A model generated the notes under the pieces. That model searched no databases. It was given only the letters and a program-made list of their open reading frames with translations, and was not told the DNA's origin. Positions 16,955 through 29,723 of a DNA stretch of 37,529 bases are shown here, in pieces. The first letter of the stretch is position 1; each line of letters begins with the position of its first letter. The stretch is from an uncultured Bacteroidia bacterium (GTDB lineage Bacteria > Bacteroidota > Bacteroidia > Bacteroidales > Prolixibacteraceae). The DNA lies in NCBI GenBank assembly GCA_903850335.1, contig CAINLJ010000062.1:1-37529 (forward strand), read 5' to 3'. Position numbers and translations under genes: made by a program.

Positions 16955-17779
16955 TTGATCAATCATAAATTGAAAAATTTGAACAACGACTTTAACAGAT
17001 ATTATCCTACTTTTTGGCAGGCGGCCAACCTGATTGTCATTTATATCTTCATTCAGACATTGGTTGACCTCCCATTGGCAATCTACGACTACAACCATGG
17101 GACAGACTGGCTCTATCAACCCTGGTTAAAAGTACCTGTATTTCTTGGATCTACACTTTTTATCCTTTCATTAGGCTATTATTACTCCGGATTACCATTC
17201 AAACAGGTCTTCTCAATAAAAGGGTTTAATATTCTAATCCTTCCGGCCATGATTATTACCTTTGGAGGTCTTCAATATTTTCTAAGTGAGATTAATATCC
17301 ATTTTGAGAAAGTGCTCCCTCCCCCCGGCTGGTTTATGGAATTATTTGCCAGACTTTTCGATTCGGATCTCGGCGTATGGGGTGGTATTCTGCGTATCGT
17401 AATCATCGCACCAATCGTGGAGGAGATAATTTTCAGAGGCCTGATCATGTCGGGCTTTTCCAGAATATATAATCCGGTGTTGGCAATATTCTTCTCAGCT
17501 TTGCTCTTTGCACTCTTTCACCTCAATCCCTGGCAGTTTGCAGCGGCTTTTTCCCTGGGATTGGTATTGGGGTGGATCAGAATAAGAACGGGATCAGTGC
17601 TTGCATGCATAGCAGGTCATGCTACACACAATGGCCTTGTTTTCCTTTCGGTATACTATTTTAACGAATTAAAATCAGTTACTTTTTTGAAGTCAGGTGA
17701 GGCATCAAATTATCTTGTTCACCTATTAATTTTCACAATCGGGATTTTTTTGATATGGCTTTTCAGTAAACGAAAATAG
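16955..17779 (+). CDS. CPBP-family intramembrane metalloprotease
   Basis: A 274-aa multi-pass membrane protein of the CPBP/Abi family (Rce1-like). The glutamate motif EEIIFRGL is at residues 156-163, the first conserved His is H189 (FHLNPW), and another His pair is in GHATHNG. About six to eight hydrophobic helices are visible. Bacterial members are membrane proteases of mostly unknown substrate; some give bacteriocin self-immunity. The frame begins with TTG at 16955; I found no better ATG upstream of the first helix, so the exact start is uncertain. The gene stands alone, convergent with the CobW-type gene. Confidence 0.85.
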   Translation: MINHKLKNLNNDFNRYYPTFWQAANLIVIYIFIQTLVDLPLAIYDYNHGTDWLYQPWLKVPVFLGSTLFILSLGYYYSGLPFKQVFSIKGFNILILPAMIITFGGLQYFLSEINIHFEKVLPPPGWFMELFARLFDSDLGVWGGILRIVIIAPIVEEIIFRGLIMSGFSRIYNPVLAIFFSALLFALFHLNPWQFAAAFSLGLVLGWIRIRTGSVLACIAGHATHNGLVFLSVYYFNELKSVTFLKSGEASNYLVHLLIFTIGIFLIWLFSKRK

Positions 17780-21739: not shown

Positions 21740-21846
21740 TGCATTTAGTTTGATTATTCCTACTCTTAAGGCTTTTCAGTAACGCCCCGTTTTTATAGTG
21801 GTATCCGGACTCCACTTTAAGTTGAGGATTAATAGAGAGTACTATT

Positions 21847-23937: not shown

Positions 23938-24123
23938 TTAAAATAAGTTCCAGATAGTTGCACAAAAATGTCCCAGTGCATAGCCGAGTTCATAAGCCAC
24001 TCCGTTAGATCCTGCCCAGTGAAAGATCGCATCAGATACAAACGAAAAAATAAGAATTACAAGAATTAATCCTAAAAGGAGAAGAAAAAAATTTCCGATT
24101 TTATGTAATATAGATTGAAGCAT
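23938..24123 (-). CDS. 61-aa membrane peptide with a YxxGYxxG tail
   Basis: A 61-aa protein with one strong helix (about residues 11-33, FFLLLLGLILVILIFSFV) and a C-terminal tail GVAYELGYALGHFCATIWNLF from residue 41 on. The tail carries YELGYALG, the same YxxGYxxG spacing as YSIGYVCG in the mature part of the 60-aa precursor peptide at 25610. It has no double-glycine leader and no clear cut site, so it may be an immunity or partner peptide rather than a precursor. It follows the CPBP gene by 45 bp and lies in the same direction. I know of no family match. Confidence 0.55.
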   Translation of the reverse strand: MLQSILHKIGNFFLLLLGLILVILIFSFVSDAIFHWAGSNGVAYELGYALGHFCATIWNLF

Positions 24124-24168
24124 AAATGTTATGTTTAAATAATATGAATCGACTCTCTAACGTATTCC

Positions 24169-25077
24169 TTACTTACATACGACACGTGATAATTGAGACT
24201 TCAGGTTTTTATTAAAATAAACCAAAAGTCCAACGATAAAAATTAACTGAATTACAAATAATAATGCGGAACCTTCAAGACCGAACACACCCCCATTCCA
24301 AATAGTATTACTTATTCTTGATTGCCTAAAAAGAGAATAAACATGATGACCACTTACATTAAATCCGAAAATTGATCCCTGAAAAAAATTCCATCCTAAA
24401 TGTAACCCAATCGGCATCCACAGATTTTTGGTATATATGTATGATATTCCAAGTAACACGCCAGAAAATGTAATATTTATAAATGCTATAAATGAAAAAT
24501 CTTCATTAGGTAAATGCCATAATGAAAAATAGATTGAAGATACTATTAAGGCAAATATTCTGTGCATTGACAACAATAAGTTGTTTAAAATATATCCACG
24601 AAAAAAAATTTCTTCACCAAGGCCTACAACCAGAAAAAGCAGAAAATAAATTGCAAGATTTGAAAAATCAAGTTCAACTCCAACCCATTTTATATCAGCT
24701 ATATATGTTAGAATTATTACTGTCGTCGTAATTATTAGTGCTCCTAAAAGAATTCCAAAGAATATATTTTTTGAAATATTATCCGGATAAAATCCAATAC
24801 TTATGAAACTTTTTTTATCTACAAAATTCCTAAAGATAAATACAACTACTATCGTTCCTACAAATGTGAATGATGCGATTATGAGGTCTTGGGAAGGAGT
24901 TGAATTGAGGTTTGAATAATTAATTTCAAAGCCTAATAAAATGAAACTTACTTTCTGAAATATACCGGTTAAAAATATATATGGCAGCAATATTAATACT
25001 GGTCTTGCCCAGCCTTCTATGGATGAAGAAATTCGAGGAAGCTTTGACATCGCTTTTAAATAGCTAAAATATTTCAT
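24169..25077 (-). CDS. CPBP-family membrane protease, candidate immunity protein
   Basis: A 302-aa protein with about eight membrane helices and the CPBP/Abi motifs: EEIFFRG at residues 155-161, H188 in SLWHLPN, and GWNFFQG further on. In Gram-positive bacteriocin loci, proteins of this family give self-immunity, and their place downstream of the peptide genes here fits that role. DNA is unusually AT-rich compared with neighbours: hand counts of two 60-base lines gave 14-15 G+C per line, against about 26 in a line of the ABC gene. It is followed by the 61-aa peptide. The immunity role is inference. Confidence 0.8.
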   Translation of the reverse strand: MKYFSYLKAMSKLPRISSSIEGWARPVLILLPYIFLTGIFQKVSFILLGFEINYSNLNSTPSQDLIIASFTFVGTIVVVFIFRNFVDKKSFISIGFYPDNISKNIFFGILLGALIITTTVIILTYIADIKWVGVELDFSNLAIYFLLFLVVGLGEEIFFRGYILNNLLLSMHRIFALIVSSIYFSLWHLPNEDFSFIAFINITFSGVLLGISYIYTKNLWMPIGLHLGWNFFQGSIFGFNVSGHHVYSLFRQSRISNTIWNGGVFGLEGSALLFVIQLIFIVGLLVYFNKNLKSQLSRVVCK

Positions 25078-25133
25078 TAATCAAAGATAAAAAAGCATTA
25101 ATTAACCTCAATAGCACATTAAATACAATTAAT

Positions 25134-25466
25134 TTATTTTGCTAAAATCCAGGTTACTAAGGCTCCAATAGAACTTACCAATAATTTTTGAAACCAAAAG
25201 CTATTGGTAAAATTTCTGTTTAACAATATAACAATAATAACACCTGTAAAAATCACGAGAATTTCTTTGGAAGGGTTAAAATTTTTTGGGCTAACAAGAT
25301 TAAAAAGACAATATGAAAATGGTACTGCAAATAAATAATTTCCCCATTCAGATATATTTAAATAATCTTTACTAAAATCTTTGTAATAATTCAAGAAAAT
25401 GACAAAAGCTAACGATATTAATACAACCAGATAACAATAAAATTTGAAAGTGAATATTTCCTTCAT
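25134..25466 (-). CDS. 110-aa membrane protein, candidate immunity protein
   Basis: A 110-aa protein with about four hydrophobic segments (about residues 8-25, 44-58, 69-83 and 93-108). I do not recognise the family. Its size and membrane pattern resemble small bacteriocin immunity proteins, and it sits between the precursor peptides and the CPBP gene, 56 bp before the latter. Its DNA is very AT-rich (two hand-counted 60-base lines had 14 and 15 G+C). The hairpin at 25542-25574 separates it from the peptide genes. Confidence 0.6.
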   Translation of the reverse strand: MKEIFTFKFYCYLVVLISLAFVIFLNYYKDFSKDYLNISEWGNYLFAVPFSYCLFNLVSPKNFNPSKEILVIFTGVIIVILLNRNFTNSFWFQKLLVSSIGALVTWILAK

Positions 25467-25541
25467 AGTAAATAATGTTATACAATGTAAAAACTTATTG
25501 TAAAGTAAAAATTGCTCTTGATAGAATGGGAATTATTAAAG

Positions 25542-25574
25542 ATTCAAGTCTTGCCAGTTTAGTAAGACTTGAAT
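25542..25574 (-). terminator. Hairpin after the precursor peptide genes
   Basis: A perfect 11-bp inverted repeat (attcaagtctt / aagacttgaat) with an 11-nt loop lies 36 bp downstream of the 60-aa precursor stop. On minus it is followed by CTTTAATAATT, a weak T-rich tract. It could be a partial terminator or an mRNA 3' stabiliser that makes peptide mRNA more abundant than the downstream candidate immunity mRNA. Confidence 0.55.
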
Positions 25575-25609
25575 ACCTTTATTAATTCAATTTCACAGTA
25601 CCAATCAAT

Positions 25610-25792
25610 TTATTGAAAGTCTTTTAGTGCTTGTTGAACAGCGGCTCCTTCTGGTGTAGTGGACCATGCCTTATAAATATTATGTGCGATTCCACATACA
25701 TAACCTATCGAATACGATATCCAGGTGCCTCCATTTATTGATTTAGCTTCTTCAAAACCTATTTCATATAGGCCTTTAATTTCTGTTTTCAT
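25610..25792 (-). CDS. Double-glycine leader precursor peptide (bacteriocin-like), 60 aa
   Basis: A 60-aa precursor. The leader is MKTEIKGLYEIGFEEAKSINGG (residues 1-22 together, with Glu at -8, Ile at -4 and GG at -2/-1 before the cut). The predicted mature 38-residue peptide starts TWISYSIGYVCGIAHNIYK and contains a GxxxG motif (GYVCG), as in the helices of two-peptide class IIb bacteriocins. It has a single cysteine, so no internal disulfide. It begins 41 bp after the 49-aa precursor and lies just downstream of the C39 exporter genes. A role as bacteriocin or signal peptide is inferred; no activity is known. Confidence 0.75.
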   Translation of the reverse strand: MKTEIKGLYEIGFEEAKSINGGTWISYSIGYVCGIAHNIYKAWSTTPEGAAVQQALKDFQ

Positions 25793-25833
25793 AATTAATT
25801 GTTTTTTATTAAATTAAATTAGGGGAGCTCCTC

Positions 25834-25983
25834 TCATTTGGTTGCAGCATCAAATCCTTCATTAAAATCCTTGCGGTTATTCCTATCTAAAAGTTCAGCG
25901 ACTATGATACCTAATATAAACCAGGCAAGTGATCCAAATCCCCCTTCAACCTCCCTTAATTCTACTTCGTTCAACTCTTTCAT
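25834..25983 (-). CDS. Double-glycine leader precursor peptide (bacteriocin-like), 49 aa
   Basis: A 49-aa frame read directly from the minus strand. The leader MKELNEVELREVEGG has the canonical double-glycine pattern: Leu -12, Glu -8, Leu -7, Val -4 and GG at -2/-1. The mature 34-residue peptide starts FGSLAWFILGIIVAELL, a hydrophobic helix with a GxxxA motif (GIIVA), and continues into a polar, charged tail ending in AATK. It has no cysteine. It lies 82 bp downstream of the HTH gene and 41 bp before the second precursor. The pair could act together as a two-peptide bacteriocin or as separate peptides. Small enough to be missed by gene callers. Confidence 0.75.
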   Translation of the reverse strand: MKELNEVELREVEGGFGSLAWFILGIIVAELLDRNNRKDFNEGFDAATK

Positions 25984-26065
25984 GATGTAAAATTTTAAAA
26001 TTTAATACATAATAGCCTGCTTTCTTTAGCGTGCTGCAGGTTTTGGCACGGGCAACGTTACAATA

Positions 26066-26389
26066 TCAAAGTAACAGCCGTACACTCTCATTTGAAAGCA
26101 GTAAGGATAATATTTGAGCCCCACCAATAATTTCTTTTGACCCCTGATCCGAAAGAATTTTCATTGAATAACTAAGCGAAAGCTCTGAGTTATTCTTATA
26201 ATAATAGGTCCTTCGGGCACGACTGTAAAGGATAGGTGCTCCCATCTCCTGCAATTCCACGATGTACCTGTAAAAATGACTCTCACTGATTCCCAGCTCC
26301 CCGGCAAATTCCTTTGGAGAACCCGTCCGTGCTGATTTAATCATGCGGTTGATCTTCTGAATACGCTGTAATTGTCCGGTAATGTTCAT
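26066..26389 (-). CDS. Small HTH protein with double-glycine-leader-like tail
   Basis: A 107-aa protein. Residues about 8-55 form a helix-turn-helix of the HTH_11/WYL-N-terminal type (SPKEFAGELGISESHFYRY), followed by a beta-hairpin wing (APILYSRARRTYYYKN). The C-terminus MKILSDQGSKEIIGG followed by 17 residues resembles a double-glycine leader: Leu -12, Ser -11, Ile -4, GG at -2/-1, but Glu -8 and Leu -7 are not conserved. The start is 12 bp after the ABC exporter stop, so it is in the same operon. It probably regulates the peptide locus. Whether the tail is cut or recognised by the C39 peptidase is speculation. Confidence 0.75.
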   Translation of the reverse strand: MNITGQLQRIQKINRMIKSARTGSPKEFAGELGISESHFYRYIVELQEMGAPILYSRARRTYYYKNNSELSLSYSMKILSDQGSKEIIGGAQILSLLLSNESVRLLL

Positions 26390-26401
26390 GGTAGATAATA
26401 T

Positions 26402-28585
26402 TTAGGTTGGAAATAAATCTTGAGGACTCTTTAACAAAAAGTGCGGAAGTTGCTTTTGCCACATTTGATAATACCTTCCTTTGGTCTCCCAAAGTGCAGA
26501 ATGACTGCCCTCCTCAAGAAGTTTCCCATTTTCGAGAACCGCAATTTTATCTGCATTTACTACTGTGCTCAAACGATGTGCTATAATAATTATTGTCTTG
26601 CCCTCCATTTTGAGCCTATTGATAGTCTCAAGCACAAAAAACTCAGATTCAGAATCAAGAGATGAAGTAGCCTCATCAAAAACGAGAACCTCCGGATTAC
26701 GGTATAAAGCTCTGGCAATTGAAATACGCTGTCTTTGACCACCGGATAGTGTAGCCCCATTCTCTCCAATCCGTGCATTCAGGCCACCTGGCAACTTCTC
26801 AATGAAATCAAGCATCCCAAGAGATTTGGATATTTGGATGATTCGTTCAATTTCAGGATGAAAATCTCCAACCGCTATATTGGAAACCAGTGTACCGGAG
26901 AATAAATCCAACTTTTGAGGTACAACCCCTACAAGACTTCTTAGGCTATTTGAGTTGATATGGGCTATATTGTAACCTCCGATTGATATGGAGCCGTCAT
27001 TAAGAGGATAAAGCTTTTGAATCAAGGCCACAAGGGTCGTCTTACCAGAACCACTTTCACCGATGACAGCTGTAATTTCTCCTTTTTTAATTTTAAAACT
27101 AAAATTAGTGAAAACGTCTGCACGCGTTCCATAACTAAAAGAAATATTACTGAAAATAATCCCTCCTGCGTTCTCACGCGAAAGATCCATTCCATTCTCT
27201 TCCGATTCAACTTCGAGATCCATGATTTCAAAGAGACGGTCACCTGCTATCAAGGCATTTTGAATTGACTTATTCATACCAATAAGGCTGGCCGCAGGGG
27301 AGGTAAAATATCCCAGTATAGCATAGAATGAAAGTAACTCACCAGGAGTAATTGTGTTATCGACAACTAAATAGCAACCTGACCAAAGAAGGATTATTGT
27401 GTAGATGCGACTAAGAAATTCGGTACTTATACCTGTAAATATTGCATTTAGACCTGATTTGTAGACTGTTCGAAGTAATTCGACAAAACGCAATTCGGTT
27501 TTAAGGTTTGAATATGATTCGAGACCAAATTCTTTGATTGTCCTGACTGAATTAAGAGATTCCACGAGCTGGCTTTCAAGCTCTGCAGCATTTTCCATGA
27601 GTCTCCGTTCACGTTTACGGTTTATTCTGTTAGTGATATAATAGATAATTCCATAAAGAGGAATAATTGTTAAGACCGTAACAGCCAATTTCCAGCTGTA
27701 CAAAAACATTAATGCGAAAGAGAAAAATACAATAAACAGATTTACAAGCAGTGATATTGCTGTCTCATTGATGAATGCCCTGATCTTGACAGCATCGTTA
27801 ATTCGCGAAATGATTTCACCAACCCTCATTGTGTCAAAAAACCTTTGTGGTAATGTAAGCAGATGTTTATAATAACCCAGAATAAGTCGTAAATCTATTT
27901 GCTGACCGGTTCTGAGAACAAAAACACTTTTTGCTGCCCCAATAAATAATTGCACCAATATTATAATTATCATAAAAATACTGAGAAGGTTAAGCAATTT
28001 AAGATTCCTGTCAACCAATACGTAATCCGTTATTTTTTGGATATAGATCGAGGTTGAAAGGCCCAGAACAGTATAAAGAATTGCTCCAATTAACGACTGG
28101 ATCAATATGGACTGATGGGGATTCAAGAGAAAAATAAATCTCCGGATATTTGAGGTTTTCTCATTTCGTGCTACAAAATTATTTCCCGGTGCCATTAATA
28201 TCAGAACTCCTGTCCAGATTTGGGAAAAGGATTCGATTGAACTCTCATGCATTAATCCGTCGCCAGGATCCATGTATTCTGCAATATGACCCTTAATCCT
28301 GTATAATACAACATAATGATGCAACACCTTATTTAAAATCACATGAGCAATTGCCGGAAGAGGGACCTCCTTTAATGAATCAGCATTTCCCTTAACACCC
28401 TTTGCTGAGAAGCCCATCTCCTCAGCAGCCTTGATTAATCCCCATGCATTTGTGCCTTTCTGATCTGTACCCGCGATCTGCCTTATCCTGGAGACCGGAA
28501 GACCTAAGTTGTAATGGGCTGCAATTGAAGCTAAACACGCAGCCCCACAATCTGTAATATCATGTTGTTTAATCTTTTTGTTCAT
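26402..28585 (-). CDS. C39-peptidase ABC exporter of double-glycine peptides
   Basis: A 727-aa bacteriocin-type exporter in the inner membrane. The N-terminal C39 peptidase has C13 (ITDCGAACLAS), H90 (HHYVVLYR) and D106 (YMDPGDG), the full catalytic triad. Six membrane helices are about residues 150-430. The ATPase has Walker A GESGSGKTT (about 510-520), signature LSGGQRQR (about 610), Walker B VLVFDEATSSLDSES and the AHRLSTV His switch. It cuts leaders after GG and exports the mature peptide. The start at 28585 is chosen because it is the family N-terminus; it overlaps the HlyD gene by 17 bp, indicating coupled translation. Confidence 0.94.
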   Translation of the reverse strand: MNKKIKQHDITDCGAACLASIAAHYNLGLPVSRIRQIAGTDQKGTNAWGLIKAAEEMGFSAKGVKGNADSLKEVPLPAIAHVILNKVLHHYVVLYRIKGHIAEYMDPGDGLMHESSIESFSQIWTGVLILMAPGNNFVARNEKTSNIRRFIFLLNPHQSILIQSLIGAILYTVLGLSTSIYIQKITDYVLVDRNLKLLNLLSIFMIIIILVQLFIGAAKSVFVLRTGQQIDLRLILGYYKHLLTLPQRFFDTMRVGEIISRINDAVKIRAFINETAISLLVNLFIVFFSFALMFLYSWKLAVTVLTIIPLYGIIYYITNRINRKRERRLMENAAELESQLVESLNSVRTIKEFGLESYSNLKTELRFVELLRTVYKSGLNAIFTGISTEFLSRIYTIILLWSGCYLVVDNTITPGELLSFYAILGYFTSPAASLIGMNKSIQNALIAGDRLFEIMDLEVESEENGMDLSRENAGGIIFSNISFSYGTRADVFTNFSFKIKKGEITAVIGESGSGKTTLVALIQKLYPLNDGSISIGGYNIAHINSNSLRSLVGVVPQKLDLFSGTLVSNIAVGDFHPEIERIIQISKSLGMLDFIEKLPGGLNARIGENGATLSGGQRQRISIARALYRNPEVLVFDEATSSLDSESEFFVLETINRLKMEGKTIIIIAHRLSTVVNADKIAVLENGKLLEEGSHSALWETKGRYYQMWQKQLPHFLLKSPQDLFPT

Positions 28586-29723
28586 TGGTAATTTTGGGAT
28601 TAATCCAATCATCCGTTTTATCGTAAATTAGCTGAAAGAGACTTCTGTTCGTGATCATAAACCTCCCTGTTAAGGTCATTCCCTTTTTGACTATACCTTT
28701 GGTCCCATTCTTAAGTGAAAGGTAATTCCTGTCGAGATGGCACCTAACTTTAAAGAAAGGTTGATCGTTGATAATGAATATATTACCAGATATGCGTGTA
28801 ACTTTTCCAGTTCCTATTCCCCATTGGTTATAATTGTATGAATGAAACTGAAAGCTTACATTCATGTCATTATGAATCAGTCCTATATTGGCCGGACTTA
28901 CAAAGCATTCCACAATTAAATCATTATCAGGTGATATTCGTGCAATTTGCTGATTCGGAACCATAAAGTTGCCCTCCTTTATACCTGAACAATCCGTGAG
29001 GGTCCCTCCTATAGGTGCAGTAATAACATACTGTCTTTTATCCCGCAAAAGTTGTTCAACGCTGGATCTGAGACTAATTTTAGTCTTTTGCAGTTCAGTG
29101 AGCTTAGTTTGCCAGATAACTTTTTGCTGTTCAATGATATTCTTAAGATGGCTTATCTCATAATCCTTACTATGCATCTTTTGCTCATATTCCATTCGGG
29201 GGATTACATTCTTTTCGAAAAGTTTTGATGCAAGAAGAAACTCCTTTTGCGCCTGTGAATTTTTAATATTCTGTTCATCCAGTTTTCCCAAGAACCCGGC
29301 ATATTCCTGCCTGAAAATAGAGGTTACTAATGTGGGATTCGTGCTTTCGAGCAATGAATTAAGATCCTTTATCTGCAGTGAGTCCTCAAAGAGTTCAAGG
29401 TTGTAAAAATTGATCTGTTCATCTGTCTTATCAGTGCTTAAAATGACAAGTGTATCTCCTTGTTTTACAATACTGTTTTCGTTAACGGATGACCTGACGA
29501 CCTGACCATAAACTGCTGATTGGGTAAGGTTATCTTCATAAGAAGAGCGGACTATTCCATTGCTCTGCGAGGTGATGTCAACTTTAATAAGGGGCAGGGA
29601 GATCAAGAAGATGATTAGTGTGGCGATTAAAATAATATACACCATTTTACTGGTGGAAAGCTGTCGGGTAAAATAATTTTCCGCGCTGTTATGAATTATT
29701 TCTGATGGGAAAAGCTGTTTCAT
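28569..29723 (-). CDS. HlyD-family secretion accessory protein
   Basis: A 384-aa periplasmic adaptor. One N-terminal helix (residues 27-46) anchors it in the inner membrane. A split lipoyl/barrel-sandwich domain starts at GIVRSSYEDNLTQSAVYGQV, followed by a long coiled coil (about 120-235, rich in Gln, Lys and Leu). The second lipoyl half is ITAPIGGTLTDCSGIKEGNF, followed by a beta-barrel domain. It couples the ABC exporter to an outer-membrane pore, as in type I or bacteriocin export. First gene of the peptide operon, behind a 298-bp gap with two imperfect direct repeats. Confidence 0.9.
   Translation of the reverse strand: MKQLFPSEIIHNSAENYFTRQLSTSKMVYIILIATLIIFLISLPLIKVDITSQSNGIVRSSYEDNLTQSAVYGQVVRSSVNENSIVKQGDTLVILSTDKTDEQINFYNLELFEDSLQIKDLNSLLESTNPTLVTSIFRQEYAGFLGKLDEQNIKNSQAQKEFLLASKLFEKNVIPRMEYEQKMHSKDYEISHLKNIIEQQKVIWQTKLTELQKTKISLRSSVEQLLRDKRQYVITAPIGGTLTDCSGIKEGNFMVPNQQIARISPDNDLIVECFVSPANIGLIHNDMNVSFQFHSYNYNQWGIGTGKVTRISGNIFIINDQPFFKVRCHLDRNYLSLKNGTKGIVKKGMTLTGRFMITNRSLFQLIYDKTDDWINPKITNEQKD

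Follow-up and report, generated by a model that had tools for sequence, protein, structure and literature searches.

Class II, two-peptide-like bacteriocin loci with a C39 peptidase-containing ATP-binding cassette (ABC) transporter (PCAT) combine a C39-ABC exporter, an HlyD adaptor, and adjacent peptides with double-glycine (GG) leaders. All of these are shared by the locus described here, which lies in a 37,529-nucleotide stretch of DNA (the window; contig CAINLJ010000062.1 of assembly GCA_903850335.1, our C62) from the 5.5-Mb draft genome of an uncultured Bacteroidia bacterium of the family Prolixibacteraceae. The locus is one of many double-glycine peptide export loci in Bacteroidota, and the locus type is known, but it differs from the class II loci in that its regulator, a winged-helix protein with a helix-turn-helix (HTH), bears a GG leader-like tail, and in that its peptides match leader models only below cut-off. 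A regulator is also connected with a secretion machine in flagella, where the anti-sigma factor FlgM is exported and its activity is tied to the state of the machine; the window HTH would resemble FlgM in this respect, but the proteins are unrelated and FlgM is not a GG-tailed DNA-binding protein. NiaR and BirA, winged-helix regulators of the HTH_11 type, have their fold in common with the window HTH, and we know of no GG tail or link to peptide export in either. To our knowledge, how Gram-negative bacteria match the production of exported peptides to the presence of an exporter is poorly understood.

Bacteroidetocins (PMC6671954) share with the window their occurrence in Bacteroidota, a 15-aa GG leader, and a C39 exporter. 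They have four cysteines in the mature peptide and are accompanied by a thiol oxidoreductase and a protein with five transmembrane segments, whereas peptide A of the window has no cysteine, peptide B has one, and an HTH protein is present; no thiol oxidoreductase was matched among nine window proteins in Pfam and NCBIfam scans. The HetC PCAT of Nostoc (PMC10986499) has in common with the window a C39 exporter tied to gene regulation, and its working model is the nearest published idea found; no GG-leader gene was reported near hetC in the available text, whereas the putative substrate here is the DNA-binding protein itself. The open-licence PMC literature searched on GG-bearing regulators and such loci yielded no DNA-binding protein in which a C39 leader is embedded, and a GG-bearing HTH is not named in the portions consulted of PMC6671954, PMC10352776, PMC10986499, PMC7366714, PMC6847099, and PMC13289728.

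The leader-like GG tail of the regulator, the link between this tail and exporters, an operator-promoter at the 3' end of the regulator gene, and the co-variation of the operator with the recognition helix are supported by computation. The GG-tailed regulator and the operator-promoter, the main feature of the locus, were absent from an earlier reading made from the DNA alone (the sequence-only reading).

Results

The regulator (26066..26389; this and the other genes of the locus lie on the minus strand) is a 107-aa protein that matches PF08279 (HTH_11) with 27.0 bits at a gathering cut-off of 25, and the HTH part of a WYL profile with an E of 9e-8 (PADLOC). Its AlphaFold2 model is a winged helix of high confidence to about residue 70, whereas residues 88-107 score under 50; the best Foldseek matches of the model are 9ebr, 1j5y, 7cv0, and 8fi3, with a best E of 0.012 and none under 0.001. 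Comparisons were made with related exporter loci, the best 80 of 382 exporter relatives from GTDB genomes, many of which are on cut contigs; the closest exporter relatives among these 80 are from uncultured Bacteroidia and Prolixibacteraceae. An HTH or a piece of one was found in 53 of the 80, and ORFs with a strict-pattern GG leader in 47 (at least two such ORFs in 22), so the gene combination is not due to chance.

A family set of 55 HTH homologues of at least 95 aa was taken from 50 exporter loci and the window, leaving out four HTH matches of <95 aa (those of L016, L059, and L072, without GG, and the second L053 copy, with GG). All 55 have exactly one GG past residue 70, followed by 11-32 residues, and the GG provides the sole invariant columns of the family alignment (A1; A2 is without L010_4890), in which mean identity is 28%. 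All four glycine codons occur at each GG position among 100 genes, and the 20 residues up to the GG are under protein-level constraint, with a ratio of nonsynonymous to synonymous divergence (pN/pS) of 0.27 in 15 disjoint pairs. Hydrophobic residues precede the GG at positions -12 (87%), -7 (55%), and -4 (87%), and Glu is present at -8 in 28 of the 55. In the window HTH, the leader-like segment (26120..26164) ends in SKEIIGG, with the codons of Gly89-Gly90 at 26120-26125; Leu at -12 and Ile at -4 fit the leader pattern, and position -7 is Ser.

A position-specific scoring matrix (PSSM) built from 93 peptide leaders, all selected to have hydrophobic residues at -7 and -4, gave median scores of -0.4 for the HTH GG sites (n = 55), -25.3 for control GG sites in the other proteins of the loci (n = 746), and -20.4 for shuffles; the window HTH site scores 4.88, which none of the 746 control sites reaches. 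The peptide leaders themselves, being the training set, score 22.8, and the HTH sites are therefore a weaker version of the leader signal. The curated leader model TIGR01847 matches the L041 HTH above its cut-off (16.6 versus 15.7 bits) at residues 78-91, ending in the GG, and TIGR03949 matches 5 of the 55 HTHs at E ≤ 10; among 8 homologues inspected, its match coincides with the GG site in 4, below cut-off. The tails past the GG resemble each other within clades. The motif [SCNT]x[FLIY]F was considered as a universal feature of the tails and rejected, as it occurs in 24 of 97 tails with 17.2 expected and a shuffle maximum of 29. Shortened copies of the HTH were seen in L053 (12522-12710) and L157 (near 12431), in which an ATG-started frame is without the HTH and retains the wing, GG, and tail; a DUF805b RNA comes after the L053 copy.

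The linkage of the GG tail to exporters was examined in searches that used the DNA-binding domain alone, to avoid selecting for GG. Among 395 genomes of the phylum, 30 matches (E ≤ 4e-13, including the window) stand clearly apart from the remainder, which are mostly longer frames; the domain was matched in 49 of 393 and 42 of 395 genomes of the order and class samples, respectively. About 20 kb was fetched around the matches, contigs permitting; three edge pieces (two of G1106 and one of G1029) and L128 (G092), which lacks an ATG-started HTH, were excluded, as were 2 of 142 proteins that are cut by contig ends. The 140 complete HTH proteins, 38 of which were not informative, comprise 49 with GG, 4 with AG, and 87 with neither. 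The median extension beyond the domain is 39 residues in motif-bearing proteins (between 30 and 62 in 50 of 53) and 13 in the others (<20 in 66 of 87). The 102 informative loci comprise 42 that are motif-bearing and 60 that are motif-less; 40 of the former and 24 of the latter have either a C39 match in the stretch or, within 3 kb, an ORF of the GG pattern (Fisher 4e-9, ignoring descent), where the ORF pattern also catches chance ORFs, mostly in the motif-less group; for C39 within 3 kb, the counts are 29 of 42 and 8 of 60 (Fisher 1e-8, again ignoring descent).

Five of nine matching plasmid records were viewed. Both plasmid HTHs that lie beside exporters (Aureibacter L145 and Persicobacter L146) have the GG, and three that are unlinked to an exporter (L143, L144, and Persicobacter L147) end at 78-83 aa. 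The HTHs of L143 and L144, from plasmids of Bacteroides fragilis and B. uniformis, are of 80-83 aa and are encoded amid conjugation genes, preceded by traN, a gene for an M23 peptidase, and one hypothetical gene.

The DNA encoding the 17-aa tail of the window regulator (26069..26119) overlaps an operator-promoter. Across 15 disjoint pairs, synonymous divergence (pS) is 0.28 in the tail DNA versus 0.49 in the leader part (p = 3e-5), and pN/pS in the tail is 0.65. The tail-coding DNA contains an inverted repeat with the half-site TTG[GC]AC[TG]GAA, and at +19 from the dyad a TAnnTT(T/A)G element that resembles the -7 box of Bacteroidota promoters (consensus TAHHTTTG, PMC6847099; also PMC7366714). 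In the window, the dyad (26081..26105) is centered at 26093 with half-sites ACTGC and GAGAGT, and the -7 box, TTACTTTG (26067..26074), overlaps the HTH stop codon at the +19 spacing; its second base is T, as against A in the consensus. This operator is the top site of the 37.5-kb window, scoring 22.7 versus 13.7 for the next site, and 18.2 when the training of the matrix is confined to the other set. Held-out matrices, each trained on one set and applied to the other, recovered sites in 45 of 55 and in 25 of 45 members, compared with 0 of 275 and 1 of 225 shuffles. The operator seed required a -7 box at +19, and that spacing had been read by eye from an earlier scan that rewarded a -7 box without fixed spacing; the finding that 23 of 24 boxes among 59 dyads are at +19 is therefore not wholly independent. 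In the 80 loci (1.9 Mb, both strands), there are 65 sites of at least 16 bits: 38 are at HTH 3' ends, 14 precede GG-peptide ORFs, 2 precede the exporter gene (L043 and L074), and 11 are elsewhere, 5 of these on the opposite strand; a shuffled control gave none in 349 kb of one strand. The lack of a -33 box was considered as proof of an activator and dropped: TTG occurs at 16-22 bp in 0 of 73 sites, but the -33 element is generally weak in promoters of F. johnsoniae (PMC6847099).

The best evidence that the HTH binds this operator is co-variation with the recognition helix, and DNA binding by the HTH is a probable property with computational support. Among 92 proteins, similarity in residues 35-43 was the best of 64 sequence windows at predicting operator similarity, at three identity cut-offs, and the modeled recognition helix comprises residues 36-48; for residues 34-42, none of 500 permutations was as good at each cut-off, with permutations that do not preserve relatedness. 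Operator-like sites scoring at least 12 are near 35 of the 53 motif-bearing HTH genes, and from 300 bp before to 400 bp after 27 of the 87 tail-less genes (a count without matched shuffles, in which the site of 22 genes is located at the stop or beyond it), and from these counts the operator seems tied to the HTH domain and the GG tail to exporters. Tail-less HTH genes with an operator-like site in L241, L233, L137, L210, L183, and others directly precede genes of apparently secreted proteins, judged by eye from signal-peptide-like starts. The HTH family may control exported cargo in general.

Between the promoter and peptide A, a candidate RNA element in the 5'-untranslated region (5'-UTR; 26016..26061) consists of GTAACGTT(G/A)C followed by an H-type pseudoknot (CGTGC/GCACG and CCTGC/GCAGG), aligned in six loci. 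Support for the pseudoknot is modest, because there is one compensatory pair (L004) and one mismatched P1 pair in two rows (L002 and L004). The window 5'-UTR matches no Rfam family at gathering score. In L039 and L042, the corresponding 5'-UTR of the GG-peptide genes contains the Rfam element DUF805b, which L053 has at two other places; the related DUF805 RNA (79.6 bits) is at 21753-21820 of the window, minus strand, directly upstream of a gene for a 138-aa membrane-like protein. Another recurring leader, roughly GCTAGCTA...GATTGGGA...CAACGCCCGGA...GGTTGG, occupies the gap between the HTH and first peptide genes of L022, L025, L057, L060, L064, and L117, and gave no Rfam match at L022, L064, L025, L057, or L060.

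Peptide A (25834..25983), MKELNEVELREVEGG|FGSL, has a 15-aa leader and a 34-aa core, and peptide B (25610..25792), ...KSINGG|TWIS, a 22-aa leader and a 38-aa core. Peptide A matches PF10439 (18.2 bits, E 0.0025) and TIGR03949 (17.7 bits, E 0.0022) below the curated cut-offs of 27.1 and 21.5, respectively, and peptide B has no family match in the Pfam and NCBIfam scans. The production and export of one or two GG peptides, as proposed in the sequence-only reading, is well supported by the C39 exporter, the two leaders beside it, and recurring synteny, GG leaders being found next to the exporter in relatives also; the proposal that the peptides are antimicrobial finds no such support, as the matches of peptide A to bacteriocin leader models all fall under cut-off and peptide B is without a match. 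Conservation of the small frames in relatives extends to leaders, present in 47 of 80 loci, but not to cores, which are highly variable, and 33 loci, many on cut contigs, lack a strict-pattern ORF. The leader of peptide A recurs in L003 and L006 and its core similarity is weak (9 of 300 shuffles equally good); the core of peptide B resembles an L038 peptide (1 of 300 shuffles equally good). A terminator-like hairpin with 11-bp arms, read from the sequence, follows peptide B (25542..25574, no strand assigned); the hairpin of the sequence-only reading comes without a position.

Upstream of the regulator are genes for the exporter (26402..28612; likely start 28585, MNKKIKQHDITDCGAAC) and for a 384-aa HlyD-type periplasmic adaptor (28569..29723). 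The exporter matches PF03412 (112.2 bits), PF00664 (163.9 bits), and PF00005 (106.4 bits), all above cut-off, and thus has C39, ABC membrane, and ATPase domains; its score with NCBIfam TIGR01193 (509.1 bits) is just under the cut-off of 523.85. The start MNKKIKQHD at 28585 matches the start sites in L002, L004, L005, L006, and L008, and with it the previously described 17-bp overlap with the adaptor gene holds, whereas the longest ORF gives 44 bp. Four C39 matches in this analysis are pieces of 135-156 aa. The adaptor matches PF13437 (48.1 bits, cut-off 22.2) and TIGR01843 (E 6e-28, yet below cut-off), and tblastn finds it in 77 of the 80 loci.

Past the hairpin are genes for a 110-aa membrane-like protein (25134..25466), a CPBP (Rce1-like) membrane protein (24169..25077), and a 61-aa protein with an N-terminal hydrophobic stretch (23938..24123). 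The CPBP protein matches PF02517 (80.3 bits, cut-off 22.4), and tblastn finds matches of the window type in 10 of the 80 related loci; it finds neither the 110-aa nor the 61-aa protein there, and the 110-aa protein has no Pfam or NCBIfam family and a weak match to KwaA (E 0.046, PADLOC). The 110-aa and CPBP proteins are immunity candidates, a role that is a guess in view of these counts. The tail of the 61-aa protein, NGVAYELGYALGHFCATIWNLF, resembles the GG-peptide core of L065; in a comparison with 173 GG cores its best score was 53, versus a maximum of 44 in 300 shuffles, and the protein could be a membrane-anchored core mimic that acts in immunity or a Sec-exported peptide. All of the components listed in the sequence-only reading (adaptor, exporter, HTH, two GG peptides, hairpin, and CPBP protein) are present on the minus strand. 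The limits of the run need correcting: the minus-strand run extends well below 23938, and the 3' boundary of the locus is thus undefined. A 195-aa protein matches dGTPase (E 0.002, PADLOC), and a second CPBP-like membrane protein, recognized by eye from the motif EEIIFRG, is encoded at 16955-17779 of the window, distant from the peptide locus.

Discussion

An operator that overlaps the peptide-gene promoter, together with a C39-type tail on the protein that probably binds it, suggests that the exporter reads or trims the regulator. In the model that we favor, and regard as somewhat probable as a whole, the GG tail of the HTH couples peptide-gene transcription to the exporter. The HTH, probably as a dimer, would bind the operator at the 3' end of its own gene, and its flexible C-terminal tail would offer a double-glycine processing signal resembling that of the peptides; the C39 domain of the exporter would recognize this tail and most likely cut after Gly90, and the cut would alter the activity, stability, or location of the HTH, so that peptide transcription would report the availability of the exporter. 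Either direction, with the HTH as activator or as repressor of the peptide genes, fits. The broader proposition, that a transcription factor family found across Bacteroidota is a substrate of the adjacent exporter and that C39 trimming at the embedded GG licenses or shuts off transcription of the cargo from a dedicated operator-promoter, appears to us evenly balanced between true and false.

Cleavage is not the only way in which the exporter might read the tail. The tail might instead tether the HTH to C39 without being cut and compete there with peptide precursors, so that the peptide load frees or traps the HTH; leader positions that dock on C39 are present in the HTH tail and the sequence past the GG evolves loosely (pN/pS 0.65), which speak for this reading. 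The GG is the cleavage determinant for C39, however, and it alone is invariant while the docking position -7 is weak; cutting is favored over docking alone because conservation is stricter at the cut site than at the docking residues, and we consider docking without cleavage unlikely. If cutting occurs, the released piece might be the product, with the exporter secreting the 11-32-residue tail as a signal and the DNA-binding domain serving as its leader. Such tails are present in 55 of 55 homologues and are similar inside clades, but the constraint on them is at the level of the DNA (low pS) and weak at that of the protein, and a motif common to the tails of the family was not found (24 of 97 versus 17.2 expected); because the protein sequence of the tail is loose, a change in the regulator is favored over a released signal, and this pro-pheromone role seems decidedly unlikely. 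To the same degree improbable is an ordinary class IIb-like two-peptide bacteriocin locus with a conventional regulator and CPBP immunity: the gene content, the weak PF10439 and TIGR03949 matches, and the occurrence of at least two GG ORFs in 22 of 80 related loci are in accord with it, but it leaves the GG tail unexplained, the peptides are under the curated cut-offs, and CPBP matches are in just 10 of the 80 loci. The least probable account, that the GG forms a structural turn or is an inherited remnant, unlinked to the exporter, gains from the GG-less HTHs near C39 matches and the phylogenetic contrasts described below, but AlphaFold2 places the GG in a low-confidence tail outside the fold, most exporter-unlinked homologues lack it, the PSSM separates the HTH sites from control GG sites, and a curated leader model passes its cut-off at the GG site in L041.

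It should be recognized that several observations weigh against the proposed coupling through the GG tail. The HTH sites score far under true leaders, with position -7 being weak, and neither TIGR01847 nor TIGR03949 matches the window HTH. A C39 match is present within 3 kb of eight HTHs that lack the GG, three motif-less HTH pieces of 64-70 aa sit in exporter loci, and two motif-bearing HTHs in informative loci (L180 and L206) are without an exporter or GG peptide. The tree, from 69 columns, is too unresolved for a descent correction, and the 3 supported independent pairs that it provides do not favor a link between GG and exporter; relatedness is likewise not preserved in the permutations of operator co-variation. 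The host genome, with three C39 exporters in total, has a second C39/GG-peptide locus on contig C138 (L259), which begins inside the terminal part of an HTH-like frame without GG; an operator scoring 17.4 bits comes next, and this arrangement counts against the GG being required. Finally, tail-less HTHs also have operator-like sites, so regulation may not need the tail.

If the coupling proposed here is correct, the HTH would constitute a one-protein link from an export machine to the transcription of its own cargo. The operator-promoter signature would offer a genome-mining handle for GG-peptide genes of Bacteroidota that leader models score below cut-off, and the HTH would be the regulator to study where such GG-peptide loci stay silent.

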